Source of the DNA: Micromonospora craterilacus
Lineage (GTDB): Bacteria; Actinomycetota; Actinomycetes; Mycobacteriales; Micromonosporaceae
Reading direction: 5' to 3'
Assembly: GCF_003236315.1 (NCBI RefSeq)
Contig: NZ_POTY01000007.1
Coordinates: 1 to 64,000 of the forward strand
Length of the DNA: 64,000 bases
Shown piece by piece: positions 47,452-63,690 of the stretch. The position numbers and the translations under genes are program-made. Numbering within the stretch: the stretch's first letter is position 1; the number at the start of each line of letters is the position of its first letter. Under the pieces are notes generated by a model. It was not told the DNA's origin and did no database searches. It saw only the letters and a list, made by a program, of their open reading frames with translations.

Positions 47452-47497
47452 TGGTGGGCGATACTGGGATCGAACCAGTGACCTCTTCGGTGTGAAG
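47452..47497 (-). tRNA. 3' half of tRNA-Val (CAC): attachment-site fragment, not functional
   Basis: The minus strand reads from the anticodon loop (TTCACAC, anticodon CAC) through CGAAG, AGGTC, the T-arm ACTGG-TTCGATC-CCAGT, and acceptor strand ending CGCCCACCA. The 5' half (acceptor, D-arm, 5' anticodon stem) is absent; unrelated DNA begins at 47498. This is the footprint of site-specific integration into a tRNA gene. Confidence 0.85.
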
Positions 47498-47681
47498 CAG
47501 GACGCGGCACCGACTCTGACCTGCGGAAACACAAAGCCGCAGGTGGCGCCGGTGCCGTTGAGTGCTGTTCAGCGCCGTTGGACGCAGTTGACTGCCGTTC
47601 AGCGCACCCGTCTGCTCCCATCCCGCTCCCCGATCCCCCTGCCCACAGTGGCGTCAGATACGGATCACCGGGCGGCCAAGA
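47494..47681 (+). repeat. ~188-bp element-arm repeat, copy A
   Basis: It matches 63501-63690 at roughly nine of ten positions. It holds a hairpin ACCTGCGG/CCGCAGGT with 10-nt loop, and two 19-bp direct repeats of type GTTGASTGCYGTTCAGCGC at 47557 and 47587, 30 bp apart. It abuts the tRNA-Val fragment, so these may be integrase arm-binding sites (inference). Confidence 0.8.
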
Positions 47682-50502: not shown

Positions 50503-50956
50503 CCAGACGCGGCTCCGGCCACACCGGCACCATCAGCGGCGTGGTCGCCGTCCACCACCCGCACGCCCGTCCGGTAGTGCTCGGCGATCAGATTCTCGGT
50601 GAATACCTCCCGGGTGGGCCCGCGGCGACCACCCGCCCGTCGAGCTGGTGGCTGGCTCCTACCAGCACAATCCACGCCACCGGCTGCTCACAGCGGCCGG
50701 ATGGTTCCGGCTGCCGAGTGAGATTGAGGCGGCGCTACGAAGCCGCCTACGCGCCCGAGCCGAAGATCAGCCGGCGTGAGGAGGGCGCACTGTTCTCGGC
50801 TACTCCGGACGCCAGCGGCCGGCGCCGAGTCACGTTCGGTGACGAGCGCTTCGCGGCAGATGCGAATGCCGCCAGCAGGGTTCGGGTCGGCTTGGTGCTT
50901 GCGTTAGTGCGGAATCTGGGTGGAACGGTCGGGCTCTTATCGGTGAGGATCGGGGT
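50503..50956. other. About 450 bp without a convincing gene; one repeat-family copy
   Basis: Frames here show no family. A short intergenic repeat copy is at 50829-50864. GAGGAT 6 nt before the next GTG is that gene's -10. Confidence 0.5.
50829..50864 (+). repeat. Short intergenic repeat, type 1
   Basis: It aligns with 57134-57169 over 36 nt, sharing GTCACNTTCGGYGAC and TCGCGGCA, and in part with 52253-52287 (GCGCTTCGCGGC then AGATG). Confidence 0.6.
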
Positions 50957-51598
50957 GTGTCCGTTCCCGTCCGTCAGGTCCGTGCCCGCTACTCGGCCGA
51001 CACCATCACCGTGTACCAGGCGTACCCGCCGCAGATCGCGTTGCCGGCGGTGTCAGCCGGCCGTTTCGTCGCCCCCTTCAAGCGGGATCGCATGACGTGG
51101 ATCAAGCCCTCCTTCCTGTGGATGATGTACCGCTGCGGTTGGGCCACCAAGCCGGGGCAAGAACGAGTGCTGTCCATCGACATCACCCGGGAAGGGTTCG
51201 AGTGGGCGCTGGCGCGAGCCTGCCTGAGTCACTACGACCGGGACCTGCATGGCGACAAGACGACCTGGACGCGGCAGTTGAAGACCAGACCGGTCCGAGT
51301 GCAGTGGGACCCGGAGCGTTCACTGCGCATGCACGCGTTGCCCCACCGGTCGCTGCAGGTCGGCTTGTCCGCCGGGGCTGTCGACCGGTACGTAGATGAC
51401 TGGATCGTCGCCGTCGAGGACATCACCCCCACAGTTCAGCGAGCCCGGGACCTGCTGCGCCGCGGTGACGAACAGGCAGCGGCAGCTCAGCTTCCCCTCG
51501 AGCACGCCTACCCGCTCCCGGAGCAGATCGTTGTCGGCCTCAACGCCAGCCCGGACCCCGCCACCGAGGAAGACCCCGAGCGACAACACAGAAAGTGA
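50957..51598 (+). CDS. DUF4291 family protein
   Basis: A 213-aa protein matching DUF4291 throughout: YSADTITVYQAYPPQIA, KRDRMTWIKPSFLWMMYRCGWATK and QERVLSIDITREGFEWAL are strongly conserved blocks. GTG at 50957 lies 6 nt after GAGGAT, so leaderless. The family is common in bacteria and some fungi and has no known activity. It stands alone between repeat copies. Confidence 0.88.
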   Translation: MSVPVRQVRARYSADTITVYQAYPPQIALPAVSAGRFVAPFKRDRMTWIKPSFLWMMYRCGWATKPGQERVLSIDITREGFEWALARACLSHYDRDLHGDKTTWTRQLKTRPVRVQWDPERSLRMHALPHRSLQVGLSAGAVDRYVDDWIVAVEDITPTVQRARDLLRRGDEQAAAAQLPLEHAYPLPEQIVVGLNASPDPATEEDPERQHRK

Positions 51599-51789
51599 CA
51601 GTCAATCGGAGAAGACGCGCTCCAGCCGCCATGTTTGCGGCAAATGAGCGCATTCATCGGCCGACTCGCCAGGGGCCGTCGGGTGCGTGCACCGGCCCTG
51701 ACCGGGATTATGCATGCCGCGTGGCTGCTGTTCTTCTGCCCGATGTTCTTCGCGTGCCACCTCGAAGCCGTTTTGTCTACTCTGGTCGC

Positions 51790-52239
51790 ATGGAAGCTCG
51801 GAAGATCAGCGTCTGGCGGAGCCGTTACAGCGTGACGGACCGAGGCCGAGAGATCACGGTGTGGGATCGCTCGGTGTGGAAGAGCGGTGGCGAGTTCGAG
51901 CTGGATGGGCAGCGTTTTCAGGTCCGCTCTAACGCCTGGGGCAACAAGTACACGATGGTCGACGACGCGGGGACTATGGTCGCCACAGCCGACCGGGTAG
52001 GCCGCAAGCGGTGGACCGTCGAGGCGGCCGGGCAGACCTACCATTTCCGGCGTAAGTCCTTCTGGGGCGAGGAGGAACTAATCCTCGGCGACACACGGGT
52101 GGGCTCGGTACGCAAGACCAGCTTCTGGCGCGGCGACGTCGCCATCGAACTGCCGGGCCTCGCGACAGCGTTGCAGCTCTTCGTGTTCGGTGTGGTCATC
52201 GGCATGTGGCACACGCAGGCCGCAGCGGCAGGAAGCTGA
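51790..52239 (+). CDS. Hypothetical protein with C-terminal membrane helix
   Basis: A 149-aa protein. The body is a beta-rich barrel-like repeat (GGEFELDGQRFQVRSNAWGNKYTMVDDAGTM, then RWTVEAAGQTYHFRRKSFW), reminiscent of LURP-one/Tubby-like folds; this is a guess from pattern. The C-terminus has one helix (ALQLFVFGVVIGMW). ATG at 51790 lies 6 nt after TACTCT, leaderless. Confidence 0.6.
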   Translation: MEARKISVWRSRYSVTDRGREITVWDRSVWKSGGEFELDGQRFQVRSNAWGNKYTMVDDAGTMVATADRVGRKRWTVEAAGQTYHFRRKSFWGEEELILGDTRVGSVRKTSFWRGDVAIELPGLATALQLFVFGVVIGMWHTQAAAAGS

Positions 52240-52252
52240 GCTGTTACATAGC

Positions 52253-52287
52253 GTGACAAGCGCTTCGCGGCTAGATGTGCGTATACC
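52253..52287 (+). repeat. Short intergenic repeat, type 1
   Basis: It shares GTGACAAGCGCTTCGCGGC and the following TAGATGTGCG with the copies at 50829 and 53081. It lies between the helix-tailed protein gene and the DinB gene. Confidence 0.55.
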
Positions 52288-52365
52288 GGCCGGTCCAGCC
52301 GGGCGGTGATCTTGCAGGCAACGCCTCGCAGAAATGGCTCGGGCGCATAAGGAAGACTGGCAGGC

Positions 52366-52956
52366 ATGGCTGATCTGGGCGACCCGAAGGCTGCGCTGCA
52401 CCACTACCTCCAGGCGACTCGCGATAACCTGATCTGGAAGCTCGACGGGCTGAGCGAACGCGAGGCCAGACTGCCCCGCACCGCGACCGGCAACAACCTG
52501 CTGGGAGTCCTCAAGCACTGCCTCAATGTCGAAGCCGGCTACTTCGGGCCTGCCTTCGGGCGTGAGTTCCCGATGCCTGAGGAACTGGTCCCCATGCAGG
52601 CGTTCGAGGAGGACCCGCAGGCAGACTGGTACGCGCGGGAGGGCGAGACGAAGAATGGGCTGATCAACCTGTATCGCCGTGTCGGGGTGTTCGCGGATCA
52701 GACGATCGAACAGCTACCCCTTGACGCGCCAGGGCAGGTGCCGTGGTGGCGCCCAGGCGAAAGGGACGTGACGCTGCACAGGATCATCATCCACGTGACC
52801 ACCGACCTCGCCCGTCACGCCGGTCACGCCGACATCATGCGCGAGCAGCACGACAGGGCGATCGGCTTGCGGCGGGAGAACTCTGGCGTCCCCCACGACT
52901 ACGACTGGCCGGCGTACGTCACCAAGCTGACGAAGCTCGCTGACCGGTTCGGTTAG
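52366..52956 (+). CDS. DinB superfamily (DUF664) protein
   Basis: A 196-aa four-helix-bundle protein of the DUF664 mycothiol-dependent-like group. The metal-binding His pattern is visible: LLGVLKHCLNVEAGYFGP (first His), then LHRIIIHVTTDLARHAGHADIMRE. The fragment at 32092-32400 is a broken relative. ATG at 52366 lies 7 nt after AAGACT. Members act as thiol transferases or have unknown roles; the substrate here is unknown. Confidence 0.85.
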   Translation: MADLGDPKAALHHYLQATRDNLIWKLDGLSEREARLPRTATGNNLLGVLKHCLNVEAGYFGPAFGREFPMPEELVPMQAFEEDPQADWYAREGETKNGLINLYRRVGVFADQTIEQLPLDAPGQVPWWRPGERDVTLHRIIIHVTTDLARHAGHADIMREQHDRAIGLRRENSGVPHDYDWPAYVTKLTKLADRFG

Positions 52957-53080
52957 CCACCCCGGTCCCGTCGATACAGGCAGAGAGGCCAGTATCCGCT
53001 CATCGGCATGTCCGCAAGGGAACCGCACGGAGCCTGATCGACGCAGCGTGACCGGTGTGCCGAGGCCCCAGCGCGCGCGA

Positions 53081-53105
53081 TCGGCGGCTAGATGAGCGCG
53101 TCCCG
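53081..53105 (+). repeat. Short intergenic repeat, type 1
   Basis: TCGGCGGCTAGATGAGCGCG, with TCGGCGGCTAG occurring again 35 nt later at about 53116. It lies just upstream of the phosphatase gene. Confidence 0.55.
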
Positions 53106-53149
53106 GTAGCGCGTCGTCGGCGGCTAGCATCGGGCGTGCGGAGGACGAG

Positions 53150-53905
53150 ATGGCGAAGCTCGTGATCATTGGTGACGTCGGCGGATGTGTCGATCAACTG
53201 TCCCAGGCCGTGATGCCTGCGCTGGAGGATCCAGATGCCGTGGTGATTCAGGTCGGCGACCTGATCGATCGTGGCCCGGACAGCGCAGGCGTGCTCGCCT
53301 TCGTTCGGCACCGACTGGAGGACTCGCGGCGGTGGATCCAGCTCATCGGTAATCACGAGTCGCAGTACCTGGGTGCCGAGAAGTTCTGGCCACAGCGGCT
53401 GTCCGGCGAAGATGCCGCGCTCCTAAAGAACTGGTGGCTGCGGGATCGTCTGCGAGCCGCCGCCGCGATGCGCACCGGGGAAGGAGAGGAATTCCTGATC
53501 ACCCACGCCGGTCTCACTGTCGATGCTTGGCGGAAGCTGGGTGAACCGGTCACCGCTGCCACCACTGCGGACCTGCTCAACACCCGCCCCGAGGACATCC
53601 TGTGGCACGAACGCGGACCGCTGTGGGCCGAAGCAGGCCCCGACCTGTACGACTCGTGGTTGCACTCCGCCGAACCACCGCCCTTCGGCCAGGTGCACGG
53701 ACACTCCACCATCGTTGATTTCCGTCGCAGAGCGTGGCGGTGTGGCGAACGGATCCGCCAGCGAGCGGCAGTGGACTGGGACGCCCGCCACACGTTCACG
53801 CGGATCAGCATGAGCCGGTTCATCGGCGTCGACCCACAACACGGACGCGACGGCGCACCGCAATGGTCGCCGATGGTGTTCCATGACGCCACATTGCTCG
53901 TCTGA
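53150..53905 (+). CDS. PPP-like serine/threonine or bis(5'-nucleosyl)-phosphatase-fold protein
   Basis: A 251-aa calcineurin-fold enzyme with PPP-type motifs: GDVGGCVDQL (usually GDIHG, here the His is replaced by Gly), QVGDLIDRGPDS, LIGNHESQYLG, THAGL and VHGHS. The GDxxDRG and GNHE motifs mark PPP phosphatases or ApaH-like enzymes. The first motif lacks the expected metal-binding His, so activity may be altered. ATG at 53150 follows GGAGG. Confidence 0.82.
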   Translation: MAKLVIIGDVGGCVDQLSQAVMPALEDPDAVVIQVGDLIDRGPDSAGVLAFVRHRLEDSRRWIQLIGNHESQYLGAEKFWPQRLSGEDAALLKNWWLRDRLRAAAAMRTGEGEEFLITHAGLTVDAWRKLGEPVTAATTADLLNTRPEDILWHERGPLWAEAGPDLYDSWLHSAEPPPFGQVHGHSTIVDFRRRAWRCGERIRQRAAVDWDARHTFTRISMSRFIGVDPQHGRDGAPQWSPMVFHDATLLV

Positions 53906-54009
53906 CCTGCCGCCCACGAATCGTCCATCTCATAAGGCACCGTCGGGCATCCGCTCATCGGCTACGACCACGCGACCAGCGGCAGAGGCGGATGTGCCAG
54001 GATCGACCG

Positions 54010-54348
54010 GTGGACCCGATCGAGATCGAGACAACGGAGTCGGGCGGGTACAGCCTTTGGCTCGAGGCCGGCACCACCGACGTTGACGATGTGATCCGCG
54101 AACTCGGTCACGAGCCGAACGGCTACTTCTGGGAAGGCGTCGCCGAGCTGCTCGTTGCCTCTGAAGCAGCAAGCCTGGGAGGCCGATTCTCGTCCGATCC
54201 CGAAGCCGGGGCCTTCTGCGCCTATAGCGACGACCGCGCTGCGCTAGAGGACCTGGCGGCTCGGCTCCGCAAGGTCGCGACGGAGGAGACCCGAGTGCGG
54301 CAACTTGTTGATTTGGCGACTGCCACTGGCTTCGAGTTCGACGACTGA
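54010..54348 (+). CDS. Imm51-like immunity protein
   Basis: A 112-aa protein matching the Imm51 polymorphic-toxin immunity family: DDVIRELGHEPNGYFWEGVAELL and DPEAGAFCAYSDDRAALEDLAARL are the typical blocks. GTG at 54010 lies 6 nt after CAGGAT, leaderless. Such proteins neutralise a specific secreted or contact-delivered toxin, normally encoded next door. No toxin gene is recognised here, so it may be an orphan immunity gene. Confidence 0.75.
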   Translation: MDPIEIETTESGGYSLWLEAGTTDVDDVIRELGHEPNGYFWEGVAELLVASEAASLGGRFSSDPEAGAFCAYSDDRAALEDLAARLRKVATEETRVRQLVDLATATGFEFDD

Positions 54349-54471
54349 TCACGCACAAAGGTCACCGGAGCGTCCTGCGGCTTTGAGTGGCTTCACGGAT
54401 GTCGACCAGCCGAGCATGCGATCATCATTGGCCGGACAGGCGACGGCTGCCGAACCGGCGGGCGCGCACGA

Positions 54472-54501
54472 CCGGCGGCAGATCAGTGCGCCTGATCTTG
54501 C
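54472..54501 (+). repeat. Short intergenic repeat, type 2
   Basis: CCGGCGGCAGATCAGTGCG followed by CCTGATCTTG. Aligned with copies at 57156, 58041, 58445 and 62964 (inverted). Confidence 0.55.
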
Positions 54502-54627
54502 ATTTTGGCGCCCGGGTATCCATCGCCGATGGCACTGACGAGCGATGAACGCGAGCGTCTCCGTGGGTCAAACGCCCACGCGCGGACGAGGCCCGCCAGT
54601 CCCCACTGGGGGCCGCGCCGCGTCGAG

Positions 54628-55683
54628 TCAGTCCTCGTCGGCCAGCTGCCACAGGTGGAGGGTGGTCTGGTCCTTGGAGACCGTGTACCAGGCGCCCTGT
54701 CCTGCCGATCGGGGAGATCCCGAGACAGGAATGGGGTAGGTGATCCGGCCGCGTAGGGCCATCGTGCGTGGGTCGACAAGCCAGTGGCGGGGGACCTGCG
54801 CGTGGTACTCGGTGCCGACCACGGCGTTGTCGTCGTACGGGAACGCCGCCTCGTAGTCCCAGCAAACGCGGTCGTTGTCCTCGCTTGAGAGAGGCGGCAC
54901 GGCTTCCTCGGCGTTCAGACGCCGCAGTTCCGTGCCGTCCTCGGCCCGGTGCAGGTAGAGGGACCACTGCCCGGGATCCGTGGTCAGGAAGTGCTCCCCG
55001 GACGGGTTCACGGCGAGGAGGACCTCCTCGTCGAACCGCTGGAAGGTGAGCTTCGCGCCATCGAAGTGTCCCCACAGCACGGGCGAGTCCTCTTCGCCCG
55101 CGAGGACAGTCAGTCCCATGTACGCCGGGTTCGGATGGGGGAAATGGATGGAGCCCGAGCCCACGGTCATCGTCTCGGCCCGGGTCAGCACCGTGCCGTC
55201 GGCGGGGTCGAGGATCAGCCATTCCTCCTCGACGTCGCGCCCCGCCCGATTACGGATGTGGGCCCACAGGAGCTTGCCGTCCGAGGAGAAGGCCACCGAG
55301 CCGCTGTCCGCGTGGGCGTGGTGGTAGTCGTCGGCATACTCGGAGAACGAGGCATGGGCCTCGGTGCACACGGCGGCGGACCAGCAACCGTGCCGGATCT
55401 CCCACCGTACGGCGCCGGTCGAATCCACGGCTCGTAACGCGTGGACGCCGGCGAACACGGCGAGATCACCCGTGGGAGAGACCGCCACCGAGCCGTACCG
55501 GTGTGGCCAGGGCGCGGGGAAGCGGACCCCTGTCCCCTCCCCGTCCAGGTCGCGGACGGCCAGCTCGGTGTCCCCACGCTGCACCAGCAGCCTGCGTCCG
55601 GGCCAGTGCAGCACCTGCGGGGCGTCCGCCGACCCGGGGTCGAGCGGAGCGGCCACGGTAGCGACAAGACGAGCAAAGGTCAC
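54628..55683 (-). CDS. Beta-propeller-like protein, paralogue B
   Basis: A 351-aa protein paralogous to the one at 34323-35423 over its whole length (AVFAGVHALRAVDSTGAVRWEIRHGCW, EEEWLILDPADGTVLTRAET, RHWLVDPRTMALRGRITYPIPVSGSP). GTG at 55683 follows TGGAGGA; the frame is open to 55860 without a start. It has repeated WD-like blades and no signal peptide. The two copies are 19 kb apart in opposite orientation. Function unknown. Confidence 0.72.
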   Translation of the reverse strand: MTFARLVATVAAPLDPGSADAPQVLHWPGRRLLVQRGDTELAVRDLDGEGTGVRFPAPWPHRYGSVAVSPTGDLAVFAGVHALRAVDSTGAVRWEIRHGCWSAAVCTEAHASFSEYADDYHHAHADSGSVAFSSDGKLLWAHIRNRAGRDVEEEWLILDPADGTVLTRAETMTVGSGSIHFPHPNPAYMGLTVLAGEEDSPVLWGHFDGAKLTFQRFDEEVLLAVNPSGEHFLTTDPGQWSLYLHRAEDGTELRRLNAEEAVPPLSSEDNDRVCWDYEAAFPYDDNAVVGTEYHAQVPRHWLVDPRTMALRGRITYPIPVSGSPRSAGQGAWYTVSKDQTTLHLWQLADED

Positions 55684-55917
55684 GGAATCCTCCAGCGCGC
55701 GTGGGACGCGAAACAGGGAACCTGGAAGCGTCCACCATATGGGGAAAGACCGGCGGCATCGGGGGGCGACAACGCGACCGGGGGTCGACGGGCTCCGACC
55801 GGCTCCAGACGCGCTCACATCGGCAAGACCGTGTTTCGAGCACCACTGCACGAGCGTCACGCACGGTGACGCCTGGTCGGGGGCGCAGGCGATCAGTTTG
55901 GATGCCTGGGGGTAGAC

Positions 55918-56910
55918 CTAGGCATCGATCTCATAGCGGTACCAACGCCGGCGATCGCCGTTTACCTGAAGCCAGAGCATCTCGTCACGGCCGACCTTTC
56001 CACGCGCCCAACCTGACGGTCGTCGGCCGTCTGGCAGCACCAGATGCTCGCGTTCCTTCTCGACCACGACCTCCCCGTCTCGGCGGGCTCGACGGATTTC
56101 CCAGCGGTACCGACCGCCCTCCCGGTGCTGGTCGAGGAAGGCGAAATCGGAGCCGGAGCCGGCCAGGCCAGCGCAGCGCGTGATGGTGTTCGGCGTAGCC
56201 GACCGAATACCATTCGCGTCGAGTTCGACCAGAGGAAAGTCAGGGTAGGGACAGGCATGAACGCGCTCCCGGCCGACGTTCAGCGCGTAGCAGTCGCACC
56301 AGGCCACTCCCGGGGTGTCGGATGACACCGTCCAGGGCTCGCCGCCCGTGCTGTCCCAGCGTGCCAGACCGAGCATGAACCCGTACGAGCGCGTGCCGTC
56401 TGGATTGGCGGACCAGTAGCTCGACTCGTCGAAGTAGCTGGTCCAGATGTTCCCGTGGGGATCGGTCACGAGTTGCTCGATGCCGTCGCCCGCATAGAAC
56501 GATGCCCGGATCTGACCACGGCTGTCGAACACCCGAAGGTTCTCCGTGAGGTGAAGCTCATCCCGCTGCACCGGCTCCCCGTAGTGTTCATACGAGACAC
56601 CCGGCGGATCGCAGCGGGCGGAGGCCAGCACGACACCGTCGCCGAGAGTGTCGATGTCGGAGAACCACAGATCAAGATCCTTCAGCGGGATCTCGTGAAC
56701 CTCCGCGTCACCACAGATGAGGGCAGTCGCGTCGTAACGCGGCGGCGGACGAAGCTCGGAAAAGTGCGGGACAGGGACGAAACCTTGGCCGGGATCGGCG
56801 ACCAGGGCGACGAGCCGGCCAAGATGATCGATGGTGGAGGCCAAGACCTCGAGATGGGCGTAACGGTCCGGAAGCATCGCGTCGAGCGCGAGCCGGCGGT
56901 CAGCGGCCAT
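55918..56910 (-). CDS. Hypothetical protein, repeat-rich, propeller-like
   Basis: A 330-aa protein from ATG 56910 with repeated beta segments (GDGIEQLVTDPHGNIWTSYFDES, SGSDFAFLDQHREGGRYRWEIRRARR), suggesting a propeller. It shows no clear sequence match to the two propeller paralogues. AAAGG lies 3 nt before the start. No family recognised. Confidence 0.6.
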   Translation of the reverse strand: MAADRRLALDAMLPDRYAHLEVLASTIDHLGRLVALVADPGQGFVPVPHFSELRPPPRYDATALICGDAEVHEIPLKDLDLWFSDIDTLGDGVVLASARCDPPGVSYEHYGEPVQRDELHLTENLRVFDSRGQIRASFYAGDGIEQLVTDPHGNIWTSYFDESSYWSANPDGTRSYGFMLGLARWDSTGGEPWTVSSDTPGVAWCDCYALNVGRERVHACPYPDFPLVELDANGIRSATPNTITRCAGLAGSGSDFAFLDQHREGGRYRWEIRRARRDGEVVVEKEREHLVLPDGRRPSGWARGKVGRDEMLWLQVNGDRRRWYRYEIDA

Positions 56911-57238
56911 AAGCCTTTCTGGTTGTCATGCTCTGATGATCGCACATCGAATGCGTACCCCGGCGCGCCGATCGACAGCAGCCGGTATCCCCAAAGATCT
57001 GCCACCTTCAAGTGAACCACCGCCACCTCCGGGCTGGCGCCTGCCAGCACGACCACGCCCCGAGCGCCGCCGACCCTTCGTCCATACCGCGACGCCCGGT
57101 CATCGGCAGCTAGAGGGCAGCGGCCGGGCCGGGGTCACCTTCGGCGACAGGCGACTCGCGGCATGAGCGCACATCCGATCTTGCGGCCAGCCCCTCGCTG
57201 GGGCCGGAGGGCGCGTCGGTGCCCGCGATAATGTCCGC
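56911..57238. other. About 330 bp without a gene; repeat cluster
   Basis: No coding frame is recognised. A repeat copy (57134-57186) fills the right part. TAATGT at 57229 is the -10 of the next gene. Confidence 0.5.
57134..57186 (+). repeat. Short intergenic repeat, types 1 and 2 joined
   Basis: The left part aligns with 50829-50864 and the right part (TCGCGGCATGAGCGCACATC then CGATCTTG) with the type 2 copies. It is the only copy where both types are contiguous, and so may show the full unit. Confidence 0.6.
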
Positions 57239-57955
57239 GTGTCAGGGAGCAAGGAGATCAACCGGTCGATCACGACGGCGGCCCGTTCTGCTTTACGTCC
57301 GCTTGGCCTTCGGCAGAAGGGGCGGTCGCGGGTGTGGTACGACGATCGTGCCTGGTGGTTGAGCATTGTGGAGTTTCAGCCGGGCCGTGGCCTGGGCACG
57401 TACCTCAACGTGGGTGCCATGTGGCTCTGGGCAAAGCGCGATCATTGGGCGTTTGATGAAGGCTCACGGTTGTACTGGCGCGATGACGGGTCCTTCGTCA
57501 CCCGGCCGCCAGTCGGTGAACGTGGTTGGAGCCAACACGTCGACTTCTTGAAACCTGACCAGTTCTTCCGGGACGTCACCTTGACCGCTGGGGTTGCTGC
57601 CGGTCGGATCGTCGAACTCCGCGCGCAGTTTCCCCACGTCGGCGCCGTTGCCGAAAGCTTGACGTCCCGTGCCGCCAGGCCAGACGAGTCGCTCTTGTGG
57701 CATGCTTACCATGCCGGAACGGCGGCCGCCGTCTGCGGCGACGTGATGCCGGCCAGGCAGCATCTCACGCACGTGGTGTCAGCCGACCTAGCAGCAAGTT
57801 GGGAGCGCGCTCTGGCTGCGCAGGCGTCGGACCTACTGGGTCTCATGGACGATCGCGTCGCACTACACGAACGCCTGGTCCAGACGGTCAACCAGACCAG
57901 GAAACGGCTGAAGCTTCCGGTAGCGGCACTTGGTTACGACGAGATCGGATTCTGA
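57239..57955 (+). CDS. DUF4304 family protein
   Basis: A 238-aa protein; the first half matches DUF4304: ARSALRPLGLRQKGRSRVWYDD, WWLSIVEFQPG and TYLNVGAMWLWAKRDHWAFDEGSRLYW. The second half is helical. GTG at 57239 lies 4 nt after TAATGT with no ribosome-binding site. DUF4304 proteins have no known activity and occur as isolated accessory genes, often in interbacterial-competition regions. Confidence 0.78.
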   Translation: MSGSKEINRSITTAARSALRPLGLRQKGRSRVWYDDRAWWLSIVEFQPGRGLGTYLNVGAMWLWAKRDHWAFDEGSRLYWRDDGSFVTRPPVGERGWSQHVDFLKPDQFFRDVTLTAGVAAGRIVELRAQFPHVGAVAESLTSRAARPDESLLWHAYHAGTAAAVCGDVMPARQHLTHVVSADLAASWERALAAQASDLLGLMDDRVALHERLVQTVNQTRKRLKLPVAALGYDEIGF

Positions 57956-58040
57956 GCCGACACGCGGACCTCGGCAGTTCGGGACGCTCTCGCACCGGTC
58001 AGGGAGCGCGAAGGTCTCCCCGTCGGCCGGCGCGTACGGA

Positions 58041-58070
58041 CGGCGGCATGAGAGTGAAGCTGATCTTGTT
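58041..58070 (+). repeat. Short intergenic repeat, type 2
   Basis: CGGCGGCATGAGAGTGAAGC then TGATCTTGTT, lying between the DUF4304 and DUF4265 genes. Confidence 0.55.
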
Positions 58071-58111
58071 CGTCCCATGCCTCTGGCCTTTCGGTGCGGC
58101 AAACTTGAGCG

Positions 58112-58456
58112 ATGCCCTCGACAGGAGACGCCGTGGTCACACCGGCAGCAGCGGAACGGGTGCGGGTTTGGTTCCCGATGTCAGGTAGGCCGGCCTCAGC
58201 CCTCGGGATGCGCGCCGAGGCGCTCTCGCCGGACCGAGTCCGGCTGCCGTTTGCACCATGGGCCGCGCTGGATGCCGCCAAGGGTGACATTTTTCGTGTT
58301 CAGCGGGAAGAAGACGGACAGCTCTGGGTGCGAGAGAAACTCGAGGCATCCGGTTACTGCGCGATCCGGGTGATACTTGCCGCCGACAGTCCGCTCGGTC
58401 CACTCGATGTTGGTACCGAAGCCATGTGGCCCAGCGGTGTGCCCACGGCGGCATGA
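58112..58456 (+). CDS. DUF4265 family protein, C-terminally truncated
   Basis: A 114-aa protein. VRVWFPM, LSPDRVRLPFAPWAALDAAKGDIFRV and REKLEASGYCAIRVI match DUF4265. Members usually continue for about 40 more residues; here the match ends at SPLGPLDVG and the frame stops where a repeat copy begins (58445). The gene was probably cut by recombination at the repeat. ATG at 58112 lies 6 nt after CAAACT. A partly functional product cannot be excluded. Confidence 0.65.
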   Translation: MPSTGDAVVTPAAAERVRVWFPMSGRPASALGMRAEALSPDRVRLPFAPWAALDAAKGDIFRVQREEDGQLWVREKLEASGYCAIRVILAADSPLGPLDVGTEAMWPSGVPTAA

Positions 58457-58475
58457 GCGCGCACCTGATCGAGCG
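58445..58475 (+). repeat. Short intergenic repeat, type 2
   Basis: ACGGCGGCATGAGCGCGCAC then CTGATCGAGCG. It forms the 3' end of the truncated DUF4265 gene. Confidence 0.55.
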
Positions 58476-58771
58476 CGCGTTCACACGGTCCCTCGGTGCG
58501 AGCCTGGCGTGCCTGAAAAGTGGTTCGACCACCCAGGCCTTCCGGTGCCCGGCAAGGCAACCACAGCGTGAGCCGGGGTGTACTCATCGGCGCCGCCGGC
58601 CAACTGGCGGAAACTGCTGACCGCCGGCCCGGCACCCCACCGCCGTACGCGCTCCGGTCGACTGGCCGCCGTCCACCGCCGCCCGTCTGTGGCCGTGCGG
58701 CCAGCCGGAAACGTGTTTCTCCGGTTGGCGTTCGCTCCGTAGGATCTCCGGCGATCAAGGGGGATGGAACG

Positions 58772-60781
58772 GTGGGCGATTTCCAGCAGTTCGTGACGGA
58801 TGTGACTTCGCGTCTGTCCACGATGTCCAGGGGTGAGTTGTACGTCGTCGGCGACGGTCTCGACCGGGACTCACTCTGGCTCACCTTTCTCGATTCCTTC
58901 CCCGCCGGCACCAATCTGCGGTTCCGTGAGCGGTCCGAGTACGACTGCTCGACCTGCCGCGGTTTCATCAAGCACTTCGGCAACGTCGTTGAGATCCACG
59001 ACGGGCGGGTCCGTACCGTCTGGTCCGGGGTGTCGGCCTCCGACCCGGTCTTCTCCGTCCTCGCCGCCGCTCTGGACGAGTTCGCTCTTTCGCTGCCGTT
59101 GTCCACCATCTTCCGGTCCACTCAGGCGCAGTACGGGACGAAGACCACCCGAACGCTGCGCGACGGCCAGGTCGAGGTGTGGCACCACCTACACGGCCGG
59201 GTGGAGAAGCGGCATCGCATCGAAGACGTCGGCGCGGCACAGGGCAACTTCGACGCCGCGGTGCAGGTCTTCCAGCGTGGCCTGGCCGAGCTGGCCCAGC
59301 ACGCTCTGGACACCGTCGTCGACCTTATCGACGACAACGCCCTCTACCGCGGCACGGAGCATCGCCGGGCGGTGACCGAGTTCCGGTCGCTGCAGAACCA
59401 GTGGACGAAGGCGACCGACCGGCGGGCCTTCGTCTTCGCCAACGCCATGAACCCGGCGGCCCGGTTCCGCAACACGGTGATCGGCACCCTCGTCCAGGAT
59501 CTCTGCGCGGGCGTCGACCTGGAGCAGGCGGTCCGGTCGTTCGAGACGAAGGTGGCGCCGCAGAATTACCAGCGCCCCACGGCGTTGATCACCCCGGCCA
59601 TGGTCAAGGCCGCCATGAAGACCATCGACGAGTTGGGTATCGAGGAGTCGTTGCAGCGACGGCTCGCCCGGCTGTCCGATGTGTCGGTCACCAACGTGCT
59701 GTGGGTCGACAACGACACACAGTCGCGGATGAAGGACGGCATCGAAGGGCTGCTCATGCAGGCGGCCACCACCGGGTCGTCAGGTGCGCGCCTTCGTGAC
59801 GCGAAGCCGGAGGAGATTCCCGTGGTCTCCTTCATGAAGGACATCCTGCCCGGTGCCGCGACCATCGACCTGTGGGTGGCCAACAGCCACGAACCGCACT
59901 TCGTCGTTCTCACCACCGGCCGGCATCCGGCCGCCCCGCGGCTGTTCACCTGGGACAACGATTTCGGCTGGTCCTACAACGGCAACGTCACCGACTCGAT
60001 CAAGGAGAAGGTCAAGCGGGCCGGCGGCAACGTCACCGGCAAGCTGCGGGTGAGCCTGTCCTGGTTCAACCACGACGACCTCGACCTGCACGTGTACGAA
60101 CCCGACGGCGACCACATCTGGTACCAGGAGAAGCGCAACAAGCTGGACGTCGACATGAACGCGGGCGGGACGCTCTCCCGCGAGCCGGTGGAGAACGTCA
60201 CCTGGACCGACCGTGTCCCCGACGGTGAGTACCGGATCGAGGTGAACCAGTACCGCAAGCGGGACAGCACCCAGGTCGGCTTCGTGATCGAGACCGAGAG
60301 CAACGGAAAGATCGAGCATTACAGCCACGAGCGCGCGGTCGGCCACAAGGAGACCGTCGAGGTGGGCCGGATGACGGTTGCCGGCGGGGTGATCACCGCT
60401 TTCCGGCCGGGTAAGGACATGCAGCCGGGCAGTGCGGGCAAGGAGTTGTGGGGCATCACCACCGAACAGTTCGTACCGGTATCCACCATCATGTACTCGC
60501 CGAACTACTTCGACGACAACGAGGTCGGCAACCGCCACTACTTCTTCATCCTCAAGGGGTGCGTGAACGACCAGCCGACCCGGGGAATCTACAACGAGTT
60601 CCTCCGCGGCGACCTGCAACCGCACCGCAAGGTGTTCGAGGTTCTCGGCGACCGCACCAAGTGCGAGCCGTCCCCGGATCAGCTGTCCGGCCTCGGCTTC
60701 AGCTCCACGATCCGCAGCTCCGTGGTCGCCAAGGTGACCATGACCGGCGGCCGGCGCCGCCTCATCAGCATCCAGTTCTGA
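58772..60781 (+). CDS. Large protein of a phage-like two-gene module, DUF2135-like C-terminal domain
   Basis: A 669-aa soluble protein. GTG at 58772 has AAGGGGG upstream; the frame is open earlier but overlaps a repeat. The N-terminal region has a CxxC-type segment (YDCSTCRGFIKHFGNVVEIHDG) and long helices. The second half has a beta-sandwich like DUF2135/YfaP (LRVSLSWFNHDDLDLHVYEP near 425 and GEYRIEVNQYRKRDS near 485). I recall similar large proteins in tailed phages, paired with a small coiled-coil protein, and the same pairing is present here 31 nt downstream. Role unknown. Confidence 0.7.
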   Translation: MGDFQQFVTDVTSRLSTMSRGELYVVGDGLDRDSLWLTFLDSFPAGTNLRFRERSEYDCSTCRGFIKHFGNVVEIHDGRVRTVWSGVSASDPVFSVLAAALDEFALSLPLSTIFRSTQAQYGTKTTRTLRDGQVEVWHHLHGRVEKRHRIEDVGAAQGNFDAAVQVFQRGLAELAQHALDTVVDLIDDNALYRGTEHRRAVTEFRSLQNQWTKATDRRAFVFANAMNPAARFRNTVIGTLVQDLCAGVDLEQAVRSFETKVAPQNYQRPTALITPAMVKAAMKTIDELGIEESLQRRLARLSDVSVTNVLWVDNDTQSRMKDGIEGLLMQAATTGSSGARLRDAKPEEIPVVSFMKDILPGAATIDLWVANSHEPHFVVLTTGRHPAAPRLFTWDNDFGWSYNGNVTDSIKEKVKRAGGNVTGKLRVSLSWFNHDDLDLHVYEPDGDHIWYQEKRNKLDVDMNAGGTLSREPVENVTWTDRVPDGEYRIEVNQYRKRDSTQVGFVIETESNGKIEHYSHERAVGHKETVEVGRMTVAGGVITAFRPGKDMQPGSAGKELWGITTEQFVPVSTIMYSPNYFDDNEVGNRHYFFILKGCVNDQPTRGIYNEFLRGDLQPHRKVFEVLGDRTKCEPSPDQLSGLGFSSTIRSSVVAKVTMTGGRRRLISIQF

Positions 60782-60812
60782 TTCCCTGCCCAGACATCCG
60801 AAAGAGGCAACC

Positions 60813-61208
60813 GTGACCATTTTCGAGAAGGCCACGCGGGAGAAATTCCGCTACCCGTCTGCCAAGGGACTGCTGACCACGGAACAGCTGTGGGAGCTTC
60901 CGCTGACCGCCAAGTCCGGCTTCAGCCTCGATGACGTGGCCAAGGCAGTCAACGCCGAACTCAAGGCCATCGACACCGAGTCGTTCGTGGCCACCGAGAC
61001 CAATCCGGCCAAGGCGACCTTGGAGACCAAGCTGGAGGTCGTCAAGCACGTCATCGCCATCCGCCTCTCGGAGGACCAGGCGGCGAAGGCAGCGGCGGCC
61101 AAGAAGCTGGAGAAGGAGAAGCTGCTGGCGGTCCTGGGCCGCAAGCAGGACGCGGTCCTGGAAAACCTGACCGAGGCAGAGCTGCTGGCCCGAATCAACA
61201 ACCTGTAG
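60813..61208 (+). CDS. Small helical partner of phage-like module
   Basis: A 131-aa highly charged helical protein. The start (FEKATREKFRYPSAKGLLTTEQLWELPL) and the Lys/Glu/Ala-rich C-terminal coiled coil (VVKHVIAIRLSEDQAAKAAAAKKLEKEKLLAVLGRKQD) resemble a small phage protein of unknown function that I associate with the larger gene upstream. GTG at 60813 has AAAGAGG at 5 nt. It lies 31 nt after that gene in the same orientation, so an operon. Confidence 0.7.
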   Translation: MTIFEKATREKFRYPSAKGLLTTEQLWELPLTAKSGFSLDDVAKAVNAELKAIDTESFVATETNPAKATLETKLEVVKHVIAIRLSEDQAAKAAAAKKLEKEKLLAVLGRKQDAVLENLTEAELLARINNL

Positions 61209-61596
61209 CCCGCCGACAATCAGCGTCTGCCAGCAGGTCCGCACATCGCCGAGAAGTACGGTCGCCATGCAAGACCTGTGCGGCCAGGCCGGCACTCAAC
61301 GGCCACTTCTCGGCGAACTCACATCGGTACAACAGCGACCGCGACGCCCTCTCATCGGCAGATCCGCGCCGCGAGCCCCGAGCGGTCACGTAACTCTTCG
61401 TAGCGCACGGATCGCGGCAGATCCGGGCGTCAAGATCGCCGTTGACGATCGTTGTGGTCCGGCTGGCGGCAGAAGTACCGGTGTGGATCGCCCGCCTGCC
61501 GGTGACGGCCGATGGCGAGTTGGCCGACCTCGTGTACGTGGACGTCGAGCTGAGTGCCGATCTTTCGGCGTAGTGACGCCGCCGGGGCATCGCGAC
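61209..61596. other. About 390 bp with only a weak short frame
   Basis: A possible 43-codon frame (61442-61573) reads LTIVVVRLAAEVPVWIARLP then VTADGELADLVYVDVELSAD. Its G/C third-position bias looks coding, but it starts at TTG without a ribosome-binding site, so it may be a gene fragment. Two direct stretches like GCGGCAGATCCGSG occur at about 61358 and 61414. Confidence 0.35.
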
Positions 61597-63500: not shown

Positions 63501-63690
63501 GAAGCAGGACGCGGCACCGACTCCGACCTGCGGAAACAGAGAACCGCAGGTGGGCACTGGTGCCGTTGAGTGCTGTTCAGCGCCGTTGGGTGCAGTTGAC
63601 TGCCGTTCAGCGCACCCGGCTGCTCCCATCCCGCTCCCCGATCCTCCTGCCCACGGTGGCGGCAGATACGGATGACCGGACGGCCAAGAA
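63501..63690 (+). repeat. ~190-bp element-arm repeat, copy B
   Basis: Same content as 47494-47681: the ACCTGCGG/CCGCAGGT hairpin and two 19-bp direct repeats (63565 and 63595, 30 bp apart). It starts with the same GAAGCAGGACGCGGCACC but is not preceded by tRNA sequence. Confidence 0.8.

Follow-up and report, generated by a model that had tools for sequence, protein, structure and literature searches.

Genes A and B of Micromonospora craterilacus, which lie in the window (the whole stretch of 64,000 nucleotides that was analysed), are a mobile two-gene unit placed differently from genome to genome, a property which the first-pass annotation had missed. The account of the pair as phage-derived and mobile is considered very likely to be correct. 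The reading preferred here combines this origin with a re-use of the pair as an anti-phage or stress-protection module, and is given a probability of roughly 0.4.

In the window, gene B is located immediately 3′ of gene A on the same strand, separated by a gap of 31 bases, and a purine-rich ribosome-binding site precedes each gene (Table 1). The source genome is a 7.3-Mb draft of 609 contigs. Coordinates, lengths and order of the two genes were exactly as the first-pass annotation had given them, and its description of both as intact with good ribosome-binding sites was borne out. It had also placed the pair amid broken genes, which is not supported by the neighbours tested, many of which are orphan genes in an intact state (DUF4291, mycothiol-transferase, metallophosphatase, Imm51, and DUF4265). 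Its statement that no capsid, portal or tail gene is nearby agrees with the PHROGs comparison, in which none of the ten neighbours tested matched a phage structural family (capsid, portal, terminase or tail). This, together with the unrelated flanks of the pair in other species, distinguishes it from a prophage remnant.

Table 1. Features of the A-B unit and of the adjoining joints in the window.
Feature	Position	Strand	Details
Joint site ahead of the upstream 238-aa gene	57104..57167	+	TCATCGGCA...GCGGCATGAG
Joint motif between two adjoining gene units	58043..58070	+	GCGGCATGAGAG...; motif family D4
Longest unit common to several genera	58448..61359	+	DNA identity ~91-95%; begins GCGGCATGAGCG, finishes CTCATCGGC
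Conserved upstream region	58682..58771	+	imperfect dyad GCCGGAAAnnCGTTTCTCCG and TAGGAT; alignment of 43 copies
Gene A, 669 aa	58772..60781	+	start GTG 58772; RBS AAGGGGGATGG
Gene B, 131 aa, partner of A	60813..61208	+	start GTG 60813; RBS AAAGAGG
Strong 3′ hairpin, unit-specific	61243..61319	+	RNA z-scores -6.05, -6.6, -5.3 in three genera
Joint site 3′ of the pair	61351..61421	+	CTCATCGGCA...GCGGCA

Profile searches against PHROGs placed both proteins end to end in phage families, A in PHROG 1735 (E 2e-220, residues 2-669) and B in PHROG 2018 (E 3e-39, residues 2-131), neither of which has an assigned function in the database. In translated searches, A was found in 504 phage records with identities of up to 47%, and B in 402. 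Furthermore, IMG/VR contains at least 543 confirmed viral-contig relatives of A. Peptide patterns taken from the bacterial protein alone matched zero viral contigs, so that the query had to include sequences from phages. The relatives of A and B are distributed over Schitoviridae, Vequintavirinae, Ackermannviridae, Caulobacter giant phages, cyanophages and others, and were also found on plasmid-like replicons of Shinella and Clostridioides.

Of 80 viral contigs with A, 79 have B behind it, directly in 71 and close by or overlapping in 8, and the 80th contig stops at A. A recurrent third partner of the phage pair was not found, the next commonest neighbours being present in 8 of 94 loci, and A and B therefore form a self-contained, strictly paired unit of large tailed phages. 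The link to tailed phages, which the first-pass annotation had named for this pair, is correct and strong on the combined grounds of PHROG matches, phage records, viral contigs and conserved pairing. The pair of M. craterilacus shares end-to-end homology as well as order and spacing with the PHROG 1735/PHROG 2018 pairs of phages. In contrast to them it is chromosomal, has a high G+C content, is mobile within one bacterial family, and has no structural gene of a phage among those neighbours that were tested.

Among 301 Micromonosporaceae genomes, 62 contain a match to A. Near full-length copies are present in 54 of these, belonging to 8 of 44 genera, and the other eight carry fragments (5) or the sandwich domain alone (3). 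In the genus Micromonospora, the unit was found in 8 of the first 37 genomes, and the closest named copies of the pair are from Micromonospora and Salinispora. Outside the family, samples of 396 genomes of the phylum and 297 of the class yielded zero full-length relatives and the sandwich domain only. The order A-B is intact in 43 of 44 Micromonosporaceae loci, the remaining one being a degraded copy (L057).

A tree was built from 84 proteins of phages and bacteria. All bacterial copies group in one clade with a support of 100, which hangs on a long stem inside the phage diversity. One bacterial clade nested in the phage tree favours a single capture of the pair from phage by Micromonosporaceae. 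The third-position G+C contents of 0.91 and 0.89 are those of a high-G+C host. The dN/dS values of 0.26 for A and 0.14 for B indicate that both proteins are under purifying selection. Domestication, suggested by the first-pass annotation, is supported by the single clade within the phage tree, the host-like base composition, the purifying selection and the wide spread.

Around the 44 loci the flanking genes differ nearly everywhere, save for a few pairs of related species. DNA identity of ~87-95% spans the pair and ends shortly outside of it. The moving unit has a length of 2.5-2.9 kb and comprises A and B together with the upstream region and, in many of the copies, a conserved 3′ hairpin; according to the limits of blastn matches, its smallest common form reaches from ~58704-58716 to the stop codon of B. 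The DNA tree mixes genera, with one Micromonospora copy paired with a Phytohabitans copy, and one copy each of Actinoplanes and Salinispora located within a mostly Micromonospora group. In addition, the median dS of A was 0.205, compared to a value of 0.41 that recA gave in these genomes, A being lower in 41 of 45 pairs, in a comparison from which 4 of 14 genomes had been dropped for technical reasons. The simplest explanation is horizontal transfer between species and genera. An empty site was sought with both window flanks in 121 genomes of the genus, and joined flanks were found in 0. In Micromonospora echinofusca (locus L019, 6959-9426), the unit is interrupted by an insert that lies at the B stop codon; the end of the insert is like an IS200/IS605-type terminus, and its gene is probably the one that gave a Cas12f-like (TnpB-type) match in PADLOC.

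A mobile pair of this kind could also be a selfish or addictive cassette, in which A and B would behave like a toxin-antitoxin system or otherwise maintain themselves, and which would spread because its loss is costly and not because the cell benefits. The compact two-gene format with an own upstream region, the patchy spread and the strict pairing of A and B are consistent with this. A, however, is a large, multi-domain protein without a match to a toxin family, and several genomes carry degraded or partial copies, which shows that loss of the unit is tolerated. This explanation is regarded as quite improbable.

The 90 bases 5′ of A are kept across 43 copies, and in most of the copies the left limit of the unit, as determined by blastn, is located inside this conserved region. 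The hairpin downstream of B, which may act as a terminator, had no occurrence other than those 3′ of this pair when 1.22 Mb of related sequence was searched, and is missing from some copies of the unit. Two base pairs of its outer stem are changed on both sides, each in one copy. A search of Rfam gave no match.

The AlphaFold2 model of A has a mean pLDDT of 86 and comprises a helical N-terminal region (~1-290), a low-confidence segment (327-343), a TerD/DUF2135-like beta-sandwich (422-550) and a conserved C-terminal domain (550-669). The first-pass annotation had described a Cys-containing N-terminal region and a DUF2135-like sandwich. The cysteines C59 and C62 are present; a metal site at this position was considered and rejected as not secure, because the Cys motif is partly or wholly missing in 3 of 15 homologues. 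Of the sandwich, the fold itself stands in the model, whereas the assignment to Pfam DUF2135 does not reach the cut-off (13.5 bits, cut-off 22), and this family was matched weakly in 18 of 70 homologues of A. Five residues (D438, D459, D461, E474, and N475) are invariant in 70 homologues.

TerD proteins top the list of fold matches, with Z values close to the level of common arrangements, and a second-look alignment of residues 422-550 with TerD-type proteins of Streptomyces gave a Z of ~8 and an rmsd of 3.6 Å over ~120 residues. The Pfam TerD profile did not match A up to an E value of 10. A Foldseek search gave no significant match in the PDB, the N-terminal region modelled alone gave no convincing fold match, and no relative was found by sequence among solved structures. 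Among predicted viral structures (BFVD), the matches of A are uncharacterised relatives only, including proteins, some of them shorter, of the giant phages Eowyn and RP12, and one distant match in the giant virus Indivirus.

Genes for MoxR, Ter or VWA proteins are close to the pair in some phages. In the Schitoviridae-like Pseudomonas phage Ebordelon, TerB, AAA and metallopeptidase-VWA protein genes lie within ~5 kb of it, and in CBA120 a VWA protein is encoded ~2 kb away. In Comamonas, a toxic-anion-resistance gene adjoins a relative of the sandwich. Ter genes of phages have been proposed to counter superinfecting phages in a study of jumbo phages (PMC7824862). The pair thus resembles Ter systems and DUF2135 proteins in its beta-sandwich with conserved acidic residues and in the Ter, MoxR and VWA genes near some phage pairs; it differs in the missing TerD Pfam match, in the fusion of the sandwich to two regions of no known fold, and in that no ter operon was seen next to the bacterial pair.

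In the explanation preferred here, A would be a soluble scaffold or sensor, whose sandwich, with its conserved acidic residues, may bind calcium or another ligand, and B would be its helical partner in a complex. The phage pair would shield the infected cell from rival phages or from stress, as proposed for phage Ter genes, and the bacterium would have re-used it for anti-phage or stress protection. A protective role of this Ter-like kind, in conflict or stress, is put forward tentatively. Against it stand the absence of a PADLOC defence family matching the pair and of a characterised homologue, as well as the fact that the TerD match concerns a single domain with a moderate Z and that Ter genes are not adjacent in most phages. 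Defence families also showed no visible enrichment in the genes that immediately flank the pair in bacteria. With phage-derived bacterial defence genes the pair has in common that a phage family is retained as a chromosomal accessory unit, but it differs from them in having neither a PADLOC match nor a known defence activity.

A different role is suggested by phage records such as NC_048647 and MT939253, in which A is labelled 'DNA-directed RNA polymerase'. The phage pair could help to take over transcription or replication in the host, or could be virion-associated and injected, with the bacterial copy serving a related regulatory task. In Ackermannviridae the pair adjoins clamp-loader and RegA genes, which is in line with such a phage role, and purified virions of the Kuttervirus Sajous1 gave 3 and 1 spectra for the homologues of A and B (PMC10892097), gp179 and its neighbour gp180, so that a virion-linked role is possible. 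The Sajous1 proteins have also been labelled putative RNA polymerase, and the authors note that low spectral counts are possibly contamination (PMC10892097). The spectra of the pair are no higher than those of likely contaminants, and its place in the genome is not constant but differs between phage groups. Furthermore, neither profile nor fold searches gave a polymerase match for A; the polymerase label was therefore rejected and looks like an unsupported carry-over. The takeover or virion role is placed on the unlikely side.

Short joint motifs, GCGGCATGAG on the left ends and CTCATCGGC on the right ends of the A-B unit and the adjoining units, were found at 57158, 58043, 58448, and 61351. 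Approximately seven distinct joint sites were obtained versus one control match. A motif on contig C600 was discarded as a chance occurrence, as it falls within an ABC transporter gene. Matches in another genome end at the joint between the two adjoining units, and close copies of the joint 3′ of the pair adjoin different genes in other genomes. The units of the 238-aa gene and of DUF4265 are located on separate contigs in another genome, with the breaks at the joints. The DUF4291, mycothiol-transferase and 410-aa genes are found near the pair in other species with 86-97% DNA identity and in rearranged order.

With its small units, recurring short joints and genes reordered elsewhere, this arrangement resembles gene cassettes as they are known from integrons. 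An integron was considered and rejected: the joints lack the GTTRRRY core and carry CATGAG instead, they do not fold like attC sites (no better than shuffled DNA, z -1.8 to +0.5), and an integron integrase was not found, with no match to TIGR02249 above the cut-off in the draft. The region 57104-61421, composed of joint-bounded units which occur in other orders elsewhere, possibly represents a cassette system without a known recombinase.

The pair could accordingly be viewed as a passive passenger of an integron-like cassette array, kept mainly through frequent transfer. The four joint motifs and the occurrence of adjoining genes as units elsewhere fit such a passage, while the purifying selection on both proteins and the 54 near full-length copies argue for a selected function. 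The passenger explanation is given little chance. A narrower form of the protective reading would make the pair a new two-gene system for anti-phage defence or superinfection exclusion that came from lytic phages and circulates among actinomycetes, borne on an uncharacterised, non-integron type of cassette with GCGGCATGAG/CTCATCGGC joints; it is considered clearly unlikely.

The pair is a clear case of a phage-to-chromosome transfer with later spread among genera. As it is kept together in hundreds of phages and is intact and selected in the culturable, non-pathogenic Micromonosporaceae, these bacteria offer a host for deletion tests. There are also hints that orphan genes move across the family in the manner of cassettes. 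Further upstream in the window (50901-56910), the orphan DUF4291, mycothiol-transferase, metallophosphatase and Imm51 genes are accompanied by genes for a 410-aa and a 330-aa protein. Finally, a direct repeat of 189 bases with 92% identity (47494-47681 and 63501-63689), the copies of which are 16 kb apart, frames the region of the gene units.
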